Part shown: positions 4,655-63,341 of the stretch, in pieces | Position numbering within the stretch: position 1 is the stretch's first letter | Layout: the number at the start of each line of letters is the position of its first letter | The notes under the pieces: model-generated | Databases searched by the model: none | What the model was told of the DNA's origin: nothing | The model's input: the letters and a program-made list of their open reading frames with translations, nothing else | Program-made: the position numbers and the translations under genes | From: Physcomitrium patens | Taxonomy: Eukaryota; Streptophyta; Bryopsida; Funariales; Funariaceae | Length of the DNA: 64,000 nucleotides | Direction of reading: 5' to 3' | Assembly (NCBI RefSeq): GCF_000002425.4 | Contig: NC_037273.1 | Coordinates: 1,877,996 to 1,941,995, forward strand

Positions 4655-5571
4655 ATAGAGTTCGTTTCCCGAGGTTGCTCTGTACAGTCCACAGTGGACT
4701 GAACGAAGATCCGTCACAGTTCGTTTCTGTCCGTCATCGTCCGTCGATTGCAGTTTTTAACTCTCATTCTACATCGCCTCCTTGCGGCGTTAGTTCCCTC
4801 CCGACTGACTGAAAATCCCCAAGGACGGTGGACTCTGCTGCGAATGGGCACATGGGGACTTGGGGCAGTCTAATTTGTCGATCTATCACACACCCATATT
4901 ATGTTTTTCTCGATTTCGGAGAATTCAACTTTGTGGGTTGACGGCATGGGTGCAAGAGCTGGAGGCGTTGTGCCGGAATTGGAGCTCGTTGCTGCACACC
5001 GTTGCTTGTAAACAGCGTAGTTACTTGGAAAACGTGTGGAATCTGCTGGGATTCTGGAGTGTTGGGTTTGTTGCAGTGCTCGAGGAGATGCTTAGGTCTG
5101 TGATTACGAAGCGGCGGGTTTTCGGGATGAATTTTGAGGCATTAGGTTTCTGTCATTATATTTGGTGAGCTGACTCACCTTTATCTGGTGCGTCTTTGTT
5201 ATACTATGGTTTTGTTGCATTACTAGCCAACTCACATAATAGTGGTGGAATTTTACCTTAATGGTGTAGGGTTTGCGTTATGGCGGTAGGATGAGGTTTG
5301 AGAGTATGATGTATCAGATACCTGCAAATTGATAGCCCTGGTGATTTATTTGCTCTTTCAATAAGCTGGGTTATCATCGTACCAGGAATTTCCCGTTGGT
5401 GGATTGGCGGTAGAAGGCGATGTGCGCTTTGGTGCTGGCAAAGAATGTGCGTGATGTGTTAGAATCCTGCTGTTACAGAGGGTGGACAGAGTCTTGTGCT
5501 ATGATAGTTTAGAGGAAGTTGGGAGGCTTTTGCAGGGTATTCCTGAGTGAACAATCGAGGAGCAGGTCAGA
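4655..5571 (+). promoter_or_regulatory. Promoter and 5' leader region of the CYB5D2-like gene
   Basis: GC content rises abruptly here, and the stretch is continuous with the coding island downstream. A 5' UTR intron is plausible: a donor GTGAGC follows about 5165, and an acceptor TTTTGCAG ends about 5535, shortly before the start codon at 5572. A 102-codon open frame at 4860-5168 lies inside this leader and shows no recognisable domain. Transcript start and intron are inferred from composition and splice consensus only. Confidence 0.45.
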
Positions 5572-8319
5572 ATGGAAGTACCTGTGAAGGCTGATGATGA
5601 TGTTCAACTCTCACATGAACCTCTAGTTGTAGCTGAAGATGTCGAGGGGACACATGAAGTTTCAGAAAATTCCCCGGAGCCTCACCTCATCGCTAAAAAC
5701 AAGGAGATTGAAACCGAAGTCTTAGAAACATCACCTGAAGTTCAAACTGCAGATGAAGAAAGAAAAACCTTGTCTGAACCGCAAACTGAAAACGAAGTGG
5801 CAGTGTCACGGCCATCCTTGGAGTCGGTATGGGAATCTCTGCAATCTGCAGCAGTTTCACAGTCTGCATCTCTCGATCCCCAAGATGCAAGTCAAGAGAA
5901 AGGGACAGTAGGTGAAGATTCACAACTTTCACCTGAACCTCAGAGGATACCTGAAATCACGGGGAGGAAGCCAAGCGCTTTACGTACTCGAACTAGTAAT
6001 CGTGTGAAGAGGAATGTAACTTTCAAGGATGACTTCGAAAAACCAGAGGAGCCACGGGTTCAGAAGTCAGGCAATCAAAGACGAGATGGAGAACAGTGGC
6101 AGAAAATTCCACTTGGCTGCGTTGGACTTCTCTTGTCTGTAGCTCTCGCTTTTCTTGTTGTGTATATGGCCACACCAAGCATGCCTACGAAACCTGTAAG
6201 CGATCACCACTCTAAGTTTGTGCTGTTGTCCAGGGGACGTTGTGTGCGTGTCTCGTCTCTTTTCTCCAAAATTGCAGAACTACTTCATTGTCGTGCGAGT
6301 CTTTCAGGACGATTTTTCATAGATTTATGGTACAAGATATGATCCAGTGATTGTTAACAGTGTCTATAACTTTGAGGAATCTGTTGTTACCGCGGTATTC
6401 GTTGAACTACATTAAAGCCTTCTGGCATTGCTCTGTTTTGACGTATGTAGTTGATTCTTATTCCATATTTGTAGAATGATTTATTTGGGATAGAACTTGA
6501 AATTGAATGTTTAATACAAATTGTTAAAGTAACATGAAATTTCCGAGTTTGTATTTTTGCTTCAAATCGGCAGGTTTACATCATCTGCTATCTAGTGTTT
6601 GCTGAAAACAAGTGTTATTGTTTATATTTGCAGCGAATCTGGACAAGTGCAGAACTAGAAAAATACAACGGGACTAATAACAAACCTCCTGTACTTCTGA
6701 GCGTTTTGGGGTAAGGTTTCCCCTTTTCCCTCTGAATTAGCTCTTTTTGATGTCTATTCAAATCTACAGTATTTCACATTTGGTTAGCATGTCCGGTCGC
6801 AGTAGAAATGTTAGACTAAACAGACCGCAGATTTCTCTGTGTTCTTTTATATTAGAATCTTACGAAGTCATTTCCTCTAGAGTATGAGAGTGAGTTGCAA
6901 ATTTCTTTACTGATTATGTTTAATTATTTTTACGTCCAGGAATGTCTTTGATGTCAGTAAGGGTTGGAAACACTATGGACCAGGGGGCAGCTACCACCAC
7001 TTTGTGGGAAGGTGTGTTTTTCGTGTCATTTATTAACTTTTGACTGTCCCTATTTTCTCTTTTTCAGTAACCTTTTCAGATCCTTAACAGATTGTGTTTG
7101 GCTTTGACTATGCTTTGGGCATAGTAACATGCCACTTGAATAGACCAGGAATTGTTCATTACTGGTTCTGCCGTTTATGGCTCGTTCTTTTTGTTTACTT
7201 CACGAGATGACGACACCTTGATACTTCTCTCCTATTTTTTTGTGCATCCAGGGATGCGTCTCGTGCGTTCGTCTCAGGAAACTTCACTGGTGAGCAGTTA
7301 TTTTAGATTCTTCATTTTAGATTTTTTCATCACAGTGCTAATTCTTGTTTGGTTTAAAGTTTCTGTGATTCTGTTCAATAGATTCATTAAATGCTGAGAA
7401 TGATCTTGGTTCATCTGCACTGAAGCTCCTGTAAGATAGGGGACGCGTCGTGGTGAGCGTTTCAGTGAGTCTGAATGGTACAGTTGCTGTGTTTGTGGTT
7501 CGACAGATGATGGACTGACAGATTCTTTAGAAGGTCTTACTCCGTCAGAGGTGAGCTTGGATTTAACATCTCTGATGTGTAAAACACTGGCTCGTGAAGT
7601 TTTCCTTATTAGCAAAGCCCTTATCATGTGGTCTGCGTTGATTGTGGCTTGGAACCTGATAGCATAGCTTGTATTTGCAGATCAAGGCTATTGATGATTG
7701 GAGATTGTTCTTTGTCAAGCGCTACGTGTAAGGATTCTCTTTGCAGCTCGTATAAACAGGCTGGATGCCATATGGTTTTCTGGTGCGTTGTGTTTTAACT
7801 CGTTAAGTTTTCTTTAACGCTAAATTTTATGAGTTCTGCGATTGCAACAGTTACTTGGGAAAGCTAGTTGGATCTTTTTACAACAAAGATGGATTACCAA
7901 CCAAAAAGTTACATTTAGCGGAGAAGAAGATAAAGCAGGCGTCGAAGATTGAGAAACAACAAAAGTTTGATGAAGAGCGGTTTCCAAATTGCAATTCTAG
8001 GTGGACTCAACACAAAGGCGGAGAGGTATATATATAAATCTGCATACATTTCTCTGTAACATATGTGTACTATGTAGAGTTTGAGCTTTGTACTACATGT
8101 ATGCGCATTTCATACGTCTAAGCTGGCTTATGAATCCTGAAAATGCAGGTTTGGTGTAACGATGGCAAGTACCCACGCATTGTTGAGTTGATAACAGAGG
8201 GGCCCAGGAGAGGTCCTCCACGAACACGATGCGCATGCCTGGAGGGAGATGAGCTCCAGCGCCCAGGTGTGAAAGAATATGACGGGTGTGATGCCCGACT
8301 TAGCAAGTGTGAGACATAA
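5572..8319 (+). CDS. CYB5D2/neuferricin-like membrane-anchored cytochrome b5-domain protein (8 exons)
   Basis: Splice-consistent exons by eye: 5572-6195, 6634-6710, 6940-7011, 7252-7289, 7507-7550, 7681-7727, 7851-8025 and 8149-8319 (stop TAA). All introns are GT-AG with matching phase, giving about 415 residues. Residues 1-180 are acidic, low-complexity and rich in SxEP-like repeats. Residues about 184-202 form one hydrophobic membrane segment (LGCVGLLLSVALAFLVVYMA). Residues about 209-300 form a cytochrome b5-like haem/steroid-binding fold of the MAPR group: WTSAELEKYNG, then LSVLGNVFDVSKGWKHYGPG, then YHHFVGRDASRAF. The C-terminal part is basic, then cysteine-rich (WCNDGKYPR, RCACLEGDEL, YDGCDARLSKC), as in CYB5D2/neuferricin rather than plant MSBP. 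A haem-binding role at an endomembrane is inferred from the family. The start is the first ATG in frame with the long exon. The long acidic N-terminus exceeds the animal proteins. Confidence 0.85.
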
Positions 8320-19028: not shown

Positions 19029-19357
19029 TGTCAAAGACATATACTAGGAAGTTGTAGAAGATTCTAGAAGGTTCTAGAGAAGCTTTGTAGTTTGTAGAAG
19101 CTACTTGAAAAGTTTTCAAGCTTGTGGAAGCTACTTGAGAAGCTTCCTAGTTTGTGGAAGCTACTTGAGAAGCTTCCTAGTTTGTAGTATATATAGGAAC
19201 CAAGATTGAGGGGATCCTCAATCTTAATAATACACCCCTTGGAGCTCTAACTCACCTCTCTAGTGTTGTTCTTGTATTCATTTGATTTATCTAGTTCTTC
19301 TCGATTCTTCTTGAGCTTCTTATTTAGATTTCTAGTCAGTATTCTAAATTTGTGATA
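19029..19357 (+). repeat. 5' LTR of family C
   Basis: Starts TGTCAAAGACAT. It carries a heat-shock-like box GAAgaTTCtaGAAggTTC at 19057-19074, then about three tandem copies of a roughly 31-base unit (GTGGAAGCTACTTGAGAAGC...) at about 19085-19186. A TATATATA box follows at 19188-19195, and a perfect 10-bp inverted repeat with a 4-base loop at 19202-19225. Confidence 0.85.
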
Positions 19358-19359
19358 GT

Positions 19360-19370
19360 TTGTCGAGACT
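19360..19370 (+). promoter_or_regulatory. Self-priming site of family C
   Basis: TTGTCGAGACT begins two bases inside the 5' LTR. It is the exact complement of AGTCTCGACAA at 47742-47752 in the 3' LTR, 32 bases downstream of the start of that LTR's TATA box. The diverged 5' LTR no longer matches as well. Confidence 0.7.
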
Positions 19371-26780: not shown

Positions 26781-27321
26781 TGTCACGGCCATAATCATGT
26801 AAGCTAATAATTACATATAGAAGTAGGTAAAAGTAAGTTAATTCTATAATATTTAATATAGAAGCTTCCTAGAAATTTCCTAGATATAACTTTGACTTCA
26901 TAGGTGTCTTTAATTGACTTTTTGGATTAGAAACGTGGTCAACAAGTTGGCCATGTGCCACACATGTTGTTAGCTTGAAGATCAAGCTAACTATGTGGCC
27001 CACACGTAGAAAAACTTGCCTTGTAAGTCAAGGCATGTGCCCTACAAATTCAACACATATTGGAGGTTCTATAGAACGTCGCCACATAGCCCCTAGTTAG
27101 AGAGTATATATAGAGACAAGAGTGAAGGCTTCTTCACTCTTGTCAACTCCTTTCTTGTTTCTAGTCTAGTTTCAAGGGTCTCTAGTTTTCTTGTCTTTTG
27201 GCAATAGGCATTCTAGTTCCTCTTTTAATATTTATACTTGTTTATATATATTTTGTTATTTCTCTTTGAGTGAAGGCTCACTTGTCTGAATTATTTTTTC
27301 ATCGAGTTCTTGTCCTTGACA
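26781..27321 (+). repeat. 5' LTR of A2
   Basis: TGTCACGGCCAT to TTGACA, 541 bp. TATATATA at 27105-27112. A perfect 13-bp inverted repeat, 27115-27127 / 27132-27144, has a 4-base loop. Confidence 0.95.
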
Positions 27322-28543
27322 GATTGAGAAGAGTTCACTTACAATATCAGAGCTTTGTTTTTCTTGAGTAAGAGTAGATTACCCCTTTCTCTTGACAAGA
27401 CATAAGCGTATTAGAAGTTTGCGGATTACCCACTTCTAAACTGATATAGTTCTTAGTATCTTCTTTGTTATCAAGTCTTTTCTTTTTCTTTTGTCTTGAG
27501 CAATATCAGACAAATTTTTCTTTTAGTATCATTATGGCCGAACTTGTTGAAATGAAGAGTGCAATGGCACAAATGCAAGAACAATTGAGGGAGTTAATGC
27601 TTACGATGCATCAACTCAATTCACCAACATAGGAAAGAACAAGAATAGCAGAAAGTAGAGATATAGAGATGATCGGAGCTGCTTCAACATCTGCACCAAA
27701 TCACATTCCTTTTCCAATTATACAACACCTTGTAAGTACTAGAGAACCAAGAATTATTTTATCCGAGAAATTTGATGGTACAAGATCAAAGTTTCGAGGG
27801 TTCATCAATCAAGTACAATTGGCAATTGAACTTCAACCGCAAAGCTATCCAACTCCAGGATCACAAGTCAAGTTTATTGGCACTTTACTTTCTGGTTTTG
27901 CATTATCATGGTTTTCGTCTTTTCTTGAACAACGAAATCCAATATTGGATAATTTGGAAGCTTTTTTGGTGGAGTTTCGATCTATGTATGGTGAACACGA
28001 TGCAACTCGTGTCGCAACAAACAAGATCCAAATTCTATGACAAGGAAACCGCTCAGTAACAATGTATGCTTCACAATTTCGACAACTTGCAATTGACATC
28101 AAGTGTGATGATGCTGCATTCATCAGTCAATTTCTTTATGGATTGCAATACAAAGTAAAGAAATTGATACTCAACTTATCTGATCCTCAAACTTTGAGTC
28201 AAGCAATCGATTTTACGGTAAAATGTGACAAACAACTTTTTGAATTTTGATTCGAGAGTCGTACACGAGAACCTCAACGTTATTACTCAATGGCAACATC
28301 AGCATCTTCGCCAAACGTACATTTGGAAGTAGAAGACATGCAAATTGACGCGATACGTTTTAAACCCCTAATTGAGCAAGAAAAGATTCGTCGTCGTTAA
28401 GAAGGATTATGTTTATACTGCGGAGAACCTAAGCACACTGCTCAACATTGTCCAAAGAAACAACGTAACTATAAAATGAGGGGTACGGCGGTCAAAGAAG
28501 ACAACATGTCAGAAAACGGATTCGTCTAGCTACAATAGGGACC

Positions 28544-43275: not shown

Positions 43276-43643
43276 ATTTCAGTTTTAGAGGAGGGTAATC
43301 CGCAACCTCTAAAAATGCCTCAATGCTTTCGAGAAGAGGGGTAATCCGCACTCTATCAAGAAGACAAAGCTCTGAAATCGATGTTAACAGTCTTTTCTAC
43401 TAGCTATGCTAAACAAAAAGAAGGAATTAATATCAGTCCAAGAGAGGGTAATCCGCAACCCTTAGAACGCTCAAGTATCTCCAAGGAAAGGGGTAGTCCA
43501 CTCTCTGCCTCAAAGAACTAAGCTCTGATATTGTGATTGAGAAAATATCAATTTAGAGGAAGGTAATCCGCAACCCCTAAAGCGCTAGAATACCTTCAAG
43601 AAGAGGGGTAATCCGCTCTCAAACAAGAAGGATTCAGCTCTGA
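43276..43643 (-). repeat. Three leader repeat modules of family D
   Basis: Three roughly 100-base modules lie at about 43276-43373, 43430-43538 and 43545-43643. Read on the minus strand, each opens with TCAGAGCT or CAGAGCTTAG, then a GGATTACCCC-like box, a spacer ending in TTTTAGAGGTTG-like sequence, a second GCGGATTACCCTC-type box and an ACTGATATT-like end. Families A and C have one or two modules of the same kind. Confidence 0.75.
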
Positions 43644-43671
43644 TATTAAGATAAAGGTAGTCTCGACAAAC

Positions 43672-44143
43672 TGTCACGGACACAAAATACAGACTTGAAA
43701 TCTAACAAGAAGTTCAAGAAGAAGTGGCAGAACTAGATTAAACAGATGAGTACAAGAACAACACCAGAAAGGTGAGCTAGAACTCCAAGAGATGTGTTGT
43801 CGAGACTGAAGAACTCTTCAGCCTCGACTCCTATATATACTACTGGCCTATGGTTCTAAGGAAGCGTATCAAGAAGCTTCCCAAGAACTATGAAGCTTCT
43901 CGAGCAACTACCCAAGAGCTAGGAAGCTTCTCAAGTAACTTCCTAGAATCTACTAGAATATTCTAAGAATCTTCTAGAACCTTCTAAGGAAATCTTTAGG
44001 GAATCTTCAAAGAATCTTTAGGGAATCTTTGAAGAATATTCCAATAGAATATTCAAGGAATCTTCTGGAAGTTTCTAGAGACTTCTTTCTAGAAGATTCT
44101 AGAAACTTGTCTCTAGAAAGGTTTAAGGACTATATCCTTAAGA
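43672..44143 (-). repeat. 5' LTR of D
   Basis: 472 bp. A perfect four-unit heat-shock-like box GAAtcTTCtaGAAccTTC lies at 43967-43984 and another GAAtaTTC at 43956-43963. The minus-strand TATATATA is 43839-43832. The start box AGTCTCGACAA (43807-43797) lies within a 13-bp inverted repeat (43799-43811 / 43816-43828, one G-U on the RNA strand, 4-base loop). Confidence 0.93.
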
Positions 44144-48203: not shown

Positions 48204-49640
48204 TGTATGACAAACATGCATAATTACATAGATAAGAAGTAATAGATAGAAGATAAATATAAATAGATTAAAAAATATTTTATAGTCAAGCTTTTTAAAA
48301 GCTTCATAAATACAGATTTGACTTTATATGTATCTGTAGTTGATTGAGAGGTTAAAAACTTGGCCAATAAGTTGGCCACATCTCACACATATTAATGGCT
48401 TGTAGTACATATTGGCCATGTGCTACATATGTAGAAAACTTATCTTGCAAGTTAGAGACATGTCTTATAGATTGGATATGTATCAAAGGTCCTATAGAAC
48501 ATTATCATGTAGCTCTTAATTAGATAGTATATATAAAGATAAGAATAAAGCCTTCTTCATCCTTATCAATTCTTTCTTATTTTTAGACTTATTGTAAGAG
48601 TTTCTAGTCTTCTTGTCTTTCACAATAGCCATTTTAGTTTTAATACTATATTACTTTTGAGTAAATGTCCATTTTTTTTAAGTTACAGAAGAATGTATTA
48701 AAGATTTTATTGTTTGTGATTTATATTCTTGATAGTTTGACAAGAATGCTAATTCATTTTTCTTATTTTGTTTTAGAAGTGAAAGAAGTATTCAACTTCT
48801 TTAGTTGTATTTGAAAGATTGTAGACTATCCATCTTTAAATTAATATTTTTATTTTATTATAATTAATGATTTTAAAAAAAATTGGATTATCCATATTTA
48901 TAGAAAATTTTATTTAATATTAGGAATTGTGGATTACAATCTTCTAATTTTACTTCTGAATTTTTAAAATTTTTTTTGTTAAAGAATGAAAAATTATTGA
49001 TGCTACACTTAGAATAAATAAGAATAAATATGCAACTATTGTAGATCTTTATAAGCTTATTAAAAAACTTTAGATAGAAATATCGCATATTACTAATATC
49101 AATAATATAGATATTATTCCTATACTTGTAAAAGAAATGAATAATAATATTCAAAGTCTACATTTAAAAATTGCGTAGTTAAAAGAAACAAGTAGATCAA
49201 ACTCATAATTAAATCTAAGAAGTCTTATTATTATAAGTATGAGGGAGATAAAGATCAACATGCCAAAAAAGTTTCATGGAACAAAATCAAAATTTTTGGG
49301 ATTTCTACAACAAGTCAAGTTTTATTTGAGCTTACATTTTTTTCAATATCTTGAAGGATTCATCTAAGTTAGATTCAAAGGTGTATAATTATTTGAAAGT
49401 GATCTCTCTTAGTTTCTATCTTTAATAGAAAAAGATGAATAATTCTTCTGTAATCTAAATTCATTCATGAAAGTATTTATGACTATATTTGGAGAAATTG
49501 AGTAAAGAAAGAATAAGAGAGATTAAATTCTTATCTTCATAATAAAAATCATGTTCAATCATTATACATGTTGCTGAATTTTAAAATCTTTCTTGCAGTA
49601 TAGATATCAAGGACATGAATTTCAAAAAAAGAAATCCTCA
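48204..49640 (+). mobile_element. Decayed family A relic, 5' part (A4)
   Basis: LTR about 48204-48734 (recognised by TTGGCCACATCTCACACA, TATATA and the LTR end TTCTTGATA). Two bases on is TTGACAAGAAT, the family A primer site. A gag relic follows (about 49255, MPKKFHGTKSKFLGFLQQVK). Strongly mutated and much older than A2 and A3. The 3' half is not seen in this orientation. Confidence 0.7.
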
Positions 49641-56930: not shown

Positions 56931-56935
56931 CCCTA

Positions 56936-57465
56936 TGTCACGGACATACATATAATTACCTATATGAATAGATAAAAGTATGTAAAAGTAGATAAAAGTA
57001 GGTTAATATCTTCTAGAGAAGCTTCTTAGAAGCTTCATAGACGCTGCTTTGACTTTATAGGAGTCTATAGTTGACTTTTAGGCTAGAAACTTGGTCAACA
57101 AGTTAGCCATGTGCCACACATGTTGGAAGCTTAAAGAACAAGCTAACTACGTGGTCCATCCATAGAAAACTTGCCTTGCAAGCAAAGGCATGTGGCCTAG
57201 AAAGTCAACATATATTGGAGGTCTTATAGAACATCGCCATGTGGCTTCTAGTTAGATAGTATATATAGAGGCAAGAGTGAAGCCCTCTTCACTCTTGTCA
57301 ACTCCCTTCTTGCTTCTAGTCTAGTTTCAAGGGTCTCTAGTTTTCTTGTATTTTGGCAATAGCCATTCTAATTTCTTTCTTAATATACATATTTCTATTT
57401 TGTCCTATTTCTTTGAGAAAAGTCTCACTTACTCTTTAGCTTTCATCGAGTTCTTGTCCTTGACA
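56936..57465 (+). repeat. 5' LTR of A3
   Basis: TGTCACGGACAT to TTGACA. GAAgcTTC units at 57018-57025 and 57029-57036. TATATATA 57260-57267. Perfect 11-bp inverted repeat 57272-57282 / 57287-57297 with a 4-base loop. Start box ACTCTTGTCAA 57291-57301. Confidence 0.97.
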
Positions 57466-57467
57466 GA

Positions 57468-57478
57468 TTGACAAGAGT
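57468..57478 (+). promoter_or_regulatory. Self-priming site of A3
   Basis: TTGACAAGAGT, two bases inside the LTR, is the exact complement of ACTCTTGTCAA at 57291-57301, which begins 31 bases after the start of the TATA box. This placement is where a tRNA primer site would normally be. Confidence 0.8.
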
Positions 57479-57677
57479 ACACTTACAATATGAGAGCTTT
57501 GTCTTTTCTTGATTAAGAGTGGATTACCCCTTTTTCTTGATAAGACATAAGCGCATTAGAAGTTGCGGATTACCCTCTTTTAAACTGATATTGTTCTTAG
57601 TATTTTCTTTGTTATCAATTCCTCTCTTCTATTTGTTTTGAGCGTTATTAGACATCTTCTCTTTTCTAAGTGCTACT

Positions 57678-58688
57678 ATGGCAGAGCTTGTTGAAATGAA
57701 GAGTGCAATGGCACAGATGCAAGAACAATTGAGGGAGTTAATGCTTGCGATGCATCAACTCAATTTACCACCACAAGGAGCAACAAGAATGGTAGGAAGT
57801 GAAGATATAGAGATGATTGGGGCTGCTTCAACATCTGCACCAAACCATGTCCCTTCTCCCAGAATGGAACACCCTTCGAGTGTTAGAGAATCGAGAGTGG
57901 CCTTGCCCGAGAAGTTTGATGGTACCAGATCCAAGTTTCGAGGATTCATCAATCAGGTCCAATTAGTGATTGAACTTCAACCCCAGAGCTATCCAACTCC
58001 AGGGTCACAAGTTAGATTCATTGGTACACTTCTTTCAGGTTCAGCATTGTCATGGTTTTCATCTTTTCTTGAACGACGAGATCCAATATTGGATAATCTA
58101 GAGGCTTTTTTGGCGGAGTTTTGATCCATGTTTGGAGAACATGATGCAATTCGTGTTGCAACCAACAAGATCCGTATTTTGCGACAAGGCAATCGATCAG
58201 TAACATTATATGCTTCGCGATTTCGACAACTTGCAACTGATATCAAGTGGGATGATGCCGCACTTGTGAGTCAATTTCTCTACGGATTACAATATGAGGT
58301 AAAGAAATTGATGCTTAATTTACCTGATCCTCAAACATTGAGTCAAGCAATTGACTTTGCTGTGAAGTGCGACAATCGACTTTTTGAATTTCGATCCAAG
58401 AGTCGCACAAGTAGGCCTCAACGTTACTACAATTCAATGGCAACACCGACGTCTCCTCAACACATACCTTCAGAAGTAGAGGATATGCAAATTGATGCGG
58501 TACGTTTCAAACCTCTTACTGAGCAAGAAAAGTCTCGTCGTCGACAAGAAGGATTGTGCTTATATTGTGGAGAACCTAAGCACACTGCTCAACATTGTCC
58601 AAAGAAGCGACGTAACTACAAAATGAGGAGTACGGCTGTCAAAGAAGACAGTATGTCGGAAAACGAGTACGTCCAGCTACAATAGGGA
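57678..58688 (+). pseudogene. gag region of A3
   Basis: Capsid-type gag with MAELVEMKSAMAQMQEQLRE at the start, LPEKFDGTRSKFRGFINQVQ, the SALSWFSSFLERRDPILDN block and a CCHC knuckle CLYCGEPKHTAQHC near the end. The start ATG lies about 210 bases after the LTR. Fossil element part. Confidence 0.85.
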
Positions 58689-58690
58689 CC

Positions 58691-61600
58691 GTGCGGCTGG
58701 AATCTTGTACAACTTCTAATGAAGGTCCTATCCTCTCCTCAGAACCATCTCCTTGTTTTATAATAGATGTACGTTTAGGACCTAATAATTACAAAGCCTC
58801 TGCCTTGATAGATTCAGGAGCCTCAGCTTGTTTTTTAGATGAAGAATTTGCTAGATGTCATAGAATATCATTAATACAAAAAACTAAACCTGTACACGTA
58901 GAAGTCATAGATGGTCGTCCGTTGTCTTCTGGAGATGTAACTCACGAAACACTTCCTGTAGATGTAGTAATAAATGGTCATAGTAGTTGCGTAATTTTTA
59001 ATATAATTAGATCTCCCTCTAATCCAGTAATTTTAGGCTTATCATGGTTAGAAAAGTATAATCCTCGAATAGATTGGATTTCTCGTAAACTTGATTTTCC
59101 TCGGAGCATTAATAACAGTTCTATTAATCAAGTAAAAAACCATGAATCTAGTATAGTAAAACCCGCACTTATAGGTGCAAAAGCATTTATACACGCACCA
59201 AAAGAAGGATCAACTTTTGCTATTTATGCTGCACCTATTTCCGAAAGCGTAAAGACTTCAAGTGGCATTCCAAGTCAATATCAAGATTATCAAGACGTTT
59301 TTGAGAAAAAGAATGCAGATATTCTTCCTGAGCATCGCCCATACGATTGTTCAATCGATCTCAAGGAAGGAACTCAGCCACCATTTGGACCAATTTACAG
59401 TTTATCGCAAGATGAGTTGGCTGAACTCAAGACATATATTGACGAGAATTTAGCGAAGAATTTCATACGCCATTCAAAATCTCCAGCAGGAGCTCCAATT
59501 TTATTCGTAAAGAAAAAAGATGGATCTTTACGAATGTGTATTGACTATCGAGGACTCAACAAGATCACAAACAAGAACAGGTATCCATTACCTTTGATAT
59601 CAGGACTCCTTAACCAGTTAAATCAAGCTAAGATCTATACAAAAATAGATCTAAGAGGAGCATATAATCTAGTACGGATCAAAGAAGGAGATGAATGGAA
59701 GACTGCGTTTCGAACCAGGTACGGACACTTTGAATACAATGTCATGCCTTTTGGACTCACGAATGCACCAGCTGCTTTTCAACATCTCATGAATGATGTA
59801 TTTCATGAATTCTTAGACAATTTTGTCGTCTGCTACCTAGACGATATCCTGATTTATTCTAAGAATGTTGAAGAACATGAAATACATGTTCGTCAAGTAT
59901 TACAAAAACTTAGAGATGCAGGATTGTACGCCAAGATAGAAAAGTGTGTATTTCACACTACTCAAGTTGACTTTTTAGGATACATCATTTCAAATGATGG
60001 TCTTATGATGGATTCTAAGAAAGTCCAAACAATCATGGATTGGAAGATTCCAAAGACTGTAAGAGATGTCCAATGTTTCTTGGGATTTGCCAATTACTAT
60101 CGGATCTTCATCAAAGACTTCTCACGAGTTGCAGCTCCACTTACACGCTTGACTAGTAAAGATAAATTCCAATGGAATCAAGAAGCGGAAGCAGCATTTG
60201 AAGCCTTGAAGACATCGTTTGTCTCTGCACCAGTCTTATATCGTGTTGACTTTTCCAAGGTATTTTTTATGGAAACAGACGCATCGGATTTTGCCTTGGG
60301 TGCAGTTTTATCACAAATGGGAACAGATGACAAACTTCATCTGATAGCTTTTCATTCAAGAAAATTCTCAGCAGCCGAGATCAATTATGAGATCCACGAT
60401 AAAGAAATTCTTGCAATCATGGATTCTTTTCAAGAATGGCGTCATTATCTAGAAGGTGCTTCTAGTCCAGTCACTGTGTATACAGATCACAAGAACCTCG
60501 AGTATTTCATGTCAGCACGCGTGTTGAATCGTCGTCAAGCTCGTTGGAGTATGTCTTTGTCAAGATTTGACTTCATTATCACTTATCGGCCAGGAAAACA
60601 ACAAGGTTTGTCTGATGCCCTGTCTAGACGTTCTTATTTTGCACCAAAAGAAGGAGATGCAGTTTTTGAGCAACAAAGAACGGTCCTCTTGAAACCGGAG
60701 CAATTTCATCTCCGAGCAGTGAAATCAACACTGACTGTTGATTCAACTTTTCTCAAGCAAATCCAGTCCAGTATGTCCTCAGACCCTCTTGTTCATGATA
60801 TCGAGAATAATTCTTCCAAGTCTCATGATTCTTCTAAGTTCGAGTTCAAGAATAATCTATTATATTTTGAAGGACGCCTATATGTTCCAGAAAGAAAAGC
60901 ACGTTTGCGTGTTCTTCAAGCACGTCATGACTTTCCAGCAGTAGGTCACTTTGGATATAATAAGACTCTGGAACTCATATCAAGAGATTTTTGGTGGCCA
61001 CAAATGTGGAAGTCAGTCAAAGACTTTGTACAATCATGTGGTATTTGTTCAAGATCAAAAATTCCTCGACATCGACCTTACGGACTTCTTCAGCCATTAC
61101 CTATACCAGAACAACCATGGTCTTCTGTTTCTATGGATTTCATCACAGATCTTCCAAACTCAAGATCTTATGATTCTATATTTGTGATAGTAGATCGTTT
61201 CACCAAGATGGCACATTTTATGCCATGTACAAAATCTATCACAGGTGAAGAAACAGCTAAGCTTTTCATTGATAATATCTATCGCTATCATGGATTACCT
61301 AAAGATATCATATCGGATAGGGGAACTCAATTTGTGTCGAGATTCTGGAAGACTCTTTTCAAGATTTTAAAAGTGGACATAAAGCTATCTTCAGCTTTCC
61401 ATCCTCAAACTGATGGACAAACAGAGCGCGTAAACTAAGTCTTGGAGCAGTATTTAAGGTGTACCATCAACTACCAACAAGATGATTGGACAAACCTTCT
61501 GCCATTGGCAGAGTTTGCTTATAATAATACAGTACATTCTTCCACGCAACAAACACCTTTCTTTGCCAATTATGGCTATCATCCACGACTTGATACTTTT

Positions 61601-62179
61601 GATTTTTCAAAAGTTGATAATCCTGCAGCAGAAGATATGGCAAATCGGTTGTCAGAGTTACATGCAATAATGAAGGCGCAGTTGAAGAAAGCTCAAGAAC
61701 GACAAAAGATAAATGCAGATGTATATTGTAAAGAGCAACCACAACTCAACGTGGGTGATAAGGTATGGCTACTTCGTCGCAATATCAAGACCACTCGACC
61801 TTGTGACAAATTGGACTATCGTAGGCTTGGCCCCTTTTCTGTTTCTGAATAGATCAACCCAGTTGCATATCGGTTACATCTACCGGAGTCAATGAAGATC
61901 CATCCTGTATTCCACGTGTCTCTTCTTGAACCATATAAGACAGTGGATATACAAGGAAGAAGACAAATGCCACCGCCTCCTATAGAAGTAGATAATAATG
62001 AAGAATTTGAGGTGGAAGAGATATTAGACTCAAGGCGGCGCCGAAATAAGCCGGAATATCTTGTTCATTGGCGCGGATATGATATTAGTGAGCGCACATG
62101 GGAGCCATCCAGGAATCTAGCAAATACATCAGCTAAAGTCAAAGTTTTTCATCAACGACATCCATCAAAACCAAGATGA
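58691..62179 (+). pseudogene. pol region of A3 (protease to chromodomain)
   Basis: In order: protease DSGASACFLDEEF (about 58810); [60 protein letters not shown] (about 59320-59860); RNase H ETDASDFALGAVLSQ and TDHKNLEYF (about 60270-60520); integrase zinc part HDFPAVGHFG and CGICSRSK (about 60930-61050), core MDFITDLP, SDRGTQF, FHPQTDGQTERVN (about 61130-61435); RRLGPF; chromodomain EVEEILDSRRRR, EYLVHWRGYDI, RTWEP (about 62000-62110). The aromatic residues fit a group I chromodomain. Few breaks. Confidence 0.92.
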
Positions 62180-62696: not shown

Positions 62697-62737
62697 TCAC
62701 CGCTCCTCGTGGAACTCGTCTCTAGAAGGGGGGGTAA

Positions 62738-63267
62738 TGTCACGGACATACATACAATTACCTATATGAATAGATAAAAGTATGTAAAAGTAGATAAAAG
62801 TAGGTTAATATCTTCTAGAGAAGCTTCTTAGAAGCTTCATAGACGCTGCTTTGACTTTATAGGAGTCTATAGTTGACTTTTAGGCTAGAAACTTGGTCAA
62901 CAAGTTAGCCATGTGCCACACATGTTGGAAGCTTAAAGAACAAGCTAACTACGTGGTCCATCCATAGAAAACTTGCCTTGCAAGCAAAGGCATGTGGCCT
63001 AGAAAGTCAACATATATTGGAGGTCTTATAGAACATCGCCATGTGGCTTCTAGTTAGATAGTATATATAGAGGCAAGAGTGAAGCCCTCTTCACTCTTGT
63101 CAACTCCCTTCTTGCTTCTAGTCTAGTTTCAAGGGTCTCTAGTTTTCTTGTATTTTGGCAATAGCCATTCTAATTTCTTTCTTAATATACATATTTCTAT
63201 TTTGTCCTATTTCTTTGAGAAAAGTCTCACTTACTCTTTAGCTTTCATCGAGTTCTTGTCCTTGACA
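62738..63267 (+). repeat. 3' LTR of A3
   Basis: 530 bp, virtually identical to the 5' copy. Confidence 0.97.
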
Positions 63268-63341
63268 CCCTAAGATCCTTTTGGCATCTCACAAGTCCCA
63301 AGAATATCTTATGTCCAATACTAATTACTCGTACATCTTAC

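Follow-up and report, generated by a model that had tools for sequence, protein, structure and literature searches.

The window, by which we mean the whole stretch of Physcomitrium patens DNA that was analyzed (64,000 nucleotides; G+C, 34%), contains elements of two related Ty3/gypsy families, termed A and B here. An ORF at 5551-6336 was 100% identical to a P. patens cytochrome b5-domain protein across 79% of the ORF length, and searches of the window with ARAGORN and Rfam (gathering threshold) returned no match. Element A3, of family A, has the following structure.

56931..56935 and 63268-63272, forward strand, target-site duplication CCCTA flanking both LTRs
56936..57465, forward strand, 5′ LTR, 530 bp, TG..CA, 3′ end TTGACA
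57642..62176, forward strand, gag-pol region, with gag and pol in different frames
62724-62734, forward strand, purine tract AGAAGGGGGGG preceding the 3′ LTR
62738..63267, forward strand, 3′ LTR, 530 bp

The two LTRs of A3 have 1 difference in 530 bp. Pfam domains were detected in the order DUF4939/Retrotrans_gag, protease, RT, RNase H, integrase, SH3_Tf2-1, and chromodomain, the last with an E value of 5.9e-16 (Chromo). Three in-frame stop codons (TGA, TAA, and TAG, at 58122, 61436, and 61850) interrupt gag/pol. The combination of near-identical LTRs and three stops indicates that A3 either was broken recently or was mobilized by proteins of other copies. A second copy, A2, is associated with a 5-bp duplication, TTCAC. 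Comparisons with published work, here and below, draw on passages of the papers cited. Abundance and the presence of a chromodomain suggest that family A may be RLG1 of P. patens (PMC7466625); if this is so, a laboratory moss offers an abundant, transcribed copy of the element in which the mechanism discussed below would be directly testable.

Complementary boxes in the LTR and leader

The A3 LTR contains a TATA box followed by an 11-nt box that recurs, as its complement, just after the LTR.

57260..57267, forward strand, TATA box TATATATA of the A3 LTR
57291..57301, forward strand, putative self-primer box ACTCTTGTCAA, beginning 31 nt after the TATA start at a C|A step and predicted to be nt 1 to 11 of the RNA
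57468..57478, forward strand, PBS TTGACAAGAGT, separated from the 5′ LTR by the 2-nt spacer GA

The A3 box and PBS are exactly complementary at 11/11 positions. Similar arrangements were detected in another copy and in a relic of family A and in two elements of family B, whose pol has ∼70% DNA identity to that of family A.

27105..27146, forward strand, A2 5′ LTR segment, with TATA at 27105, a U3 arm (see below) at 27115-27127, and the box at 27136-27146
27324..27334, forward strand, A2 PBS TTGAGAAGAGT, paired with the box at 10/11 positions with one internal mismatch
48528..48569, forward strand, LTR segment of relic A4, with TATA at 48528 and a decayed box at 48559-48569
48737..48747, forward strand, PBS of relic A4 TTGACAAGAAT, with one change relative to the A3 PBS and 9/11 pairing with the A4 box
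43797..43839, reverse strand, B1 5′ LTR segment, with TATA from 43839, a U3 arm at 43828-43816, and box AGTCTCGACAA at 43807-43797
43659..43669, reverse strand, B1 PBS TTGTCGAGACT, 2 nt after the 5′ LTR end (43672)
∼38074-37602, reverse strand, B1 3′ LTR
19360..19370, forward strand, PBS TTGTCGAGACT of relic B2, with 7/11 pairing to a decayed LTR box at 19220-19230

In B1, the box starts at TATA +32, and AGTCTCGACAA and TTGTCGAGACT form an exact 11/11 pair. The boxes of families A and B have 3 differences, each of which is matched in the PBS. A C|A step marks the box start in 11/11 tabulated rows; exceptions were present in two further LTRs, A5 (C|G) and B3 (T|A). The motif TGG, with which a tRNA CCA end would pair, was absent from the 30 nt that follow the LTR in A2, A3, A4, B1, and B2.

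A sequence-only reading of this DNA had described much of the family A layout, and the description was borne out. The A3 site, worded there as lying two bases inside the 5′ LTR, is located 2 nt downstream of it (the LTR ends at 57465 and, after GA, the site starts at 57468), and its exact complement begins 31 nt after the start of the TATA box. The same spacing in A2, with one unpaired position, and the retention of the site in relic A4 were also found as claimed, and the lack of TGG after the LTRs of A2, A3, and A4 agreed with the statement that family A has no tRNA primer site. The exact pair of family B and the additional complementary segment in U3 of both families (see below) go beyond that description.

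A separate feature of the LTR termini was observed in these families. The family A LTR begins with TGTCACGGACA (56936-56946), and the family B LTR ends with its exact reverse complement, TGTCCGTGACA (43682-43672, reverse strand); these sequences constitute a long terminal inverted repeat common to the two families.

Related loci, covariation, and leader folds

Related elements were sought in genome contigs, and 24 loci were identified, all in records labelled bacterial, which we infer to be eukaryotic contamination; no relatives were found in viral contigs. The pair was tested in 23 of these loci (L021, in which the match begins at base 5, was left out) by examining whether an 11-mer situated 30 to 34 nt after a TATA box had a complement 60 to 900 nt further on and upstream of the RT. 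An exact 11-nt pair was detected in 6/23 loci (L001, L002, L004, L005, L007, and L022), with none in 4,600 shuffles, 23 opposite strands, or 23 downstream stretches. Acceptance of 10-nt pairs yielded the same six loci and 3/4,600 shuffles. In all six, the PBS is preceded by ACA and two bases (TGACA in five and TAACA in L022), resembling the LTR ends of families A and B, and it was from this similarity that the LTR ends of the loci were deduced.

The other 17 loci had no pair at the expected TATA offset, and many of these are truncated or distant. Direct repeats, possibly LTRs, are present in L006, L008, L014, and L019, such that truncation need not account for all of the loci that lack a pair. 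L006 has a related PBS-like site, and its LTR box is no longer exactly complementary. Inverted pairs without a TATA box were also observed upstream of the RT, the longest being those at L020:169-1060 (14 nt) and L013:441-596 (13 nt).

Some of these loci give indications of their source. L002 to L007 and L022 are Tcn1-like elements in records of a cyanobacterial Trichormus MAG (ERR2144891), and five of them (L002, L004, L005, L007, and L022) carry the exact pair. Trichormus (Nostoc) azollae is an inhabitant of Azolla ferns, and the loci of this MAG may be fern elements. The Tcn1 hosts named in the available passages of PMC2864245 are mosses and Selaginella, with ferns not among them. L001, in a record labelled as a cyanobacterium, encodes an RT 79% identical to that of A3 and has exactly the primer pair and hairpin of family B; its source is possibly a moss in the same sample.

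Families and loci together provided four primer types and six comparisons between them, and every difference in the box was matched in the PBS. Among the locus pairs are AAGGCGAACAA/TTGTTCGCCTT and AAGGTGAACAA/TTGTTCACCTT, which are one change apart with the change matched on both sides.

Minimum-energy structures were computed for the leaders of nine elements, each stretch beginning at the box start and extending 40 nt beyond the PBS. The primer:PBS duplex was present in 8/9 folds, with 11/12 pairs in L002 and 11/11 in the other seven; the fold of A2, which has a primer:PBS mismatch, contained 0/11 of these pairs. An additional duplex, in which the LTR end pairs with bases immediately 3′ of the primer, was read in five of the nine folds (L002, L004, L005, L007, and L022) and resembles the accessory duplexes of Tf1 (PMC10085805). 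This duplex was not evident in the predicted folds of A3, A2, B1, and L001, and the additional "pretzel" duplexes known from Tf1 were not evident in the A3 fold either. The leaders of families A and B also contain ATATCAGAGCT and repeated GCGGATTACC units 3′ of the PBS (27344-27354; 43400-43660, reverse strand).

Phylogenetic position and source of the primer

A database search was performed with the RT-RNase H stretch, and the best 120 of 7,968 matches were considered. The nearest of these 120 were metagenome proteins with 98, 94, and 83% identity, and the nearest named proteins matching the whole query were fungal (Tremellales, Powellomyces, and Absidia; 63 to 64%). Also among the best 120 were fish and frog proteins with 51 to 57% identity over 90 to 100% of the query and seed-plant proteins with 44 to 51% identity at approximately full coverage; a protein of the frog Ascaphus had 67% identity across half of the query. 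When these 120 matches were ordered by bit score, Solanum verrucosum (51%) and frogs came first among the named rows, and hence the score ranking alone does not indicate fungi. In a 24-row RT tree, in which the Tremellales protein (63% identity) stands in for a Tcn1 reference, A2, A3, and B1 grouped with Tremellales, Powellomyces, Absidia, fish, and frog and were separated from seed plants and Closterium (100/99). A 38-row tree joined A and B with L001 and with three metagenome rows in one group (100/100), and the seed-plant rows again clustered with support, to the exclusion of A and B; the deeper order of this tree is weak, and it contains long branches. A3 is probably a member of a moss chromovirus family that falls, within Ty3/gypsy, on the side of Tf1/sushi and Tcn1.

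The arrangement in A3 is probably explained by self-priming from the 5′ end of its own RNA in place of a tRNA, a reading of the DNA to which we assign a probability of roughly 0.88. Transcription of A3 would most likely start at 57291, as judged from the TATA spacing and the C|A step, and the first 11 nt of the RNA would then fold back onto the PBS two bases past the 5′ LTR. RNase H would presumably cleave behind nt 11, and the released 11-nt RNA could prime minus-strand DNA. Covariation between families and loci, the position of the pair, and the RT phylogeny all support this reading, and the Tf1-type self-priming put forward by the sequence-only reading is to that extent upheld. Its accompanying statement that no plant case was known does not hold, since most plant Tcn1 chromoviruses, found in mosses and club-mosses, had already been predicted to self-prime by Neumann et al. 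(2019) (PMC6317226). Given the moss host and the grouping of A and B with fungal and vertebrate chromoviruses, self-priming is what would be expected of this clade.

The plant Tcn1 elements of that study resemble A3 in host group, chromodomain, and absence of a tRNA site. They also share the configuration used for prediction, namely, complementarity to the LTR of at least 10 bp starting 0 to 5 nt after it (PMC6317226); A3 and B1 have 11/11 pairing at +2, and A2 has 10/11 with an internal mismatch. The published prediction was made per clade, and the available passages of the paper contain no box sequences, covariation, or U3 arm. To this clade-level prediction, the present data add a moss chromovirus case worked out in sequence, covariation included. 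Physcomitrella elements were placed in Tcn1 by Novikova et al. (2010), who described SM-Tcn1 of Selaginella as another Tcn1-clade element having, like A3, a TATA box in its LTRs (of 440 bp) and no tRNA site that could be found; evidence of self-priming was not found for that element (PMC2864245). Self-priming has been proposed for Tcn1 of Cryptococcus (PMC7175516) and for Tj1 (PMC4600332). Tf1/Tf2 and the Tf1/sushi group share with A3 a chromovirus pol and SH3_Tf2-1 and, in Tf1, complementarity of the first 11 RNA nt to the PBS; for these elements, the available passages report accessory duplexes lying 3′ of the primer and mention no U3 arm (PMC10085805, PMC7175516). Self-priming has likewise been predicted for the TAR copia elements, of which Houba and Osr-1 are, like A3, plant LTR elements (PMC6317226). 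These belong to Ty1/copia, whereas A3 has the gypsy order of RT, RNase H, integrase, and chromodomain.

Alternatively, the pair might be real and have arisen as a by-product of copying or as part of a promoter palindrome, with another primer being used. The location of the box inside a TATA-proximal palindrome, possibly a promoter or DNA feature, lends this some credence. However, the PBS of A3 and B1 matches all 11 bases of the box, including the last two, which lie beyond the hairpin, and the PBS is located at +2 from the LTR end in families A and B and at +2 from a similar sequence in 6/6 paired loci. A route by which the primer was copied into the PBS would, moreover, itself be expected to mark self-priming. 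We consider this alternative unlikely.

Priming by a cellular tRNA at the post-LTR site, whether through the 3′ terminus or by a half-tRNA, appears very unlikely. A2 does contain ATATCAGAGCT, 22 nt past the LTR, resembling TGGTATCAGAGC, which we take to be the plant initiator-tRNA site. Furthermore, tRNA-Met is the commonest type of primer and is utilized by most plant chromoviruses (PMC6317226). Set against this are the absence of TGG at the five junctions and the parallel changes in box and post-LTR site between families, which tRNA priming leaves unexplained. The downstream ATATCAGAGCT was rejected as a priming site, having no TGG and being too distant from the LTR. Chance complementarity in an A+T-rich LTR is negligibly probable: a match as long anywhere in the LTR did occur in 3/5,000 dinucleotide shuffles of the A3 LTR, but further exact pairs were present at approximately the same offset in family B and in the six loci, as against none of the 4,600 locus shuffles.

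The U3 arm

A third segment complementary to the primer lies between the TATA box and the self-primer box.

57270..57282, forward strand, A3 U3 arm, forming the 5′ strand of a hairpin (13-bp stem, 4-nt loop)
57287..57299, forward strand, 3′ half of the A3 hairpin, overlapping nt 1 to 9 of the putative self-primer

The arm pairs with nt 1 to 9 of the box and with the 4 bases preceding it. All 12 window LTRs of families A and B that were examined had a U3 hairpin with a 4-nt loop; seven had the full 13-bp stem, and five had 10 to 12 pairs. Five of the six paired loci also had the hairpin (13 bp in L001; 12 bp in L004, L005, and L022; 11/12 pairs in L007). Of six stretches that were folded, five had z-scores from −5.1 to −8.4. 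L002, which has an exact primer pair, had no U3 hairpin (z-score, −0.4). Across the four primer types, all of the differences in nt 1 to 9 of the box remain paired with the arm, wobble pairs included; between the A and C types, this applies to 7/7 differences. By computation, the U3 hairpin was more stable than the primer:PBS duplex in six of seven elements, by 5 to 11 kcal/mol in A3, A2, and B1. In L007, the hairpin core (−13.8) was slightly weaker than primer:PBS (−14.1), and a longer stretch folded at −17.7.

One explanation is that the U3 hairpin is a DNA or promoter element, such as a factor-binding palindrome or a determinant of start-site selection. The hairpin lies wholly within the region from the TATA box to 9 nt beyond the predicted start, and the covariation would suit a DNA palindrome equally well. 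A protein-binding palindrome should, however, conserve its sequence, and here the sequence varies while the complementarity stays, as in the comparison of the A and C types. This explanation is a serious possibility that falls somewhat short of even odds.

A role in the RNA can also be envisaged. As the arm precedes the predicted RNA start, the transcript would carry it only at the 3′ end, beside the 3′ copy of the primer. The hairpin could then hide the primer copy of the 3′ LTR, leaving the PBS to pair only with the 5′-terminal copy. We tentatively suggest that Tcn1-like self-primers keep the U3 arm, primer, and PBS mutually complementary and that the arm may act as an RNA lock, such that only transcripts starting exactly at the primer can prime. 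No description of a U3 arm of this kind was found in the available passages of the literature on Tcn1- and Tf1-type self-priming. The arm raises the question, for self-primers with a terminally repeated RNA, of how the 5′ copy is told from the 3′ copy, and it is a part of the finding that is worth following.

Apart from families A and B, the window contains a third gypsy family (34597-19982, reverse strand) with LTR-like repeats of ∼1.1 kb each, into which A2 appears to have been inserted. A tRNA-type start, TGGTGAATTCGACG, is located ∼4 nt past the likely LTR end of this third family.
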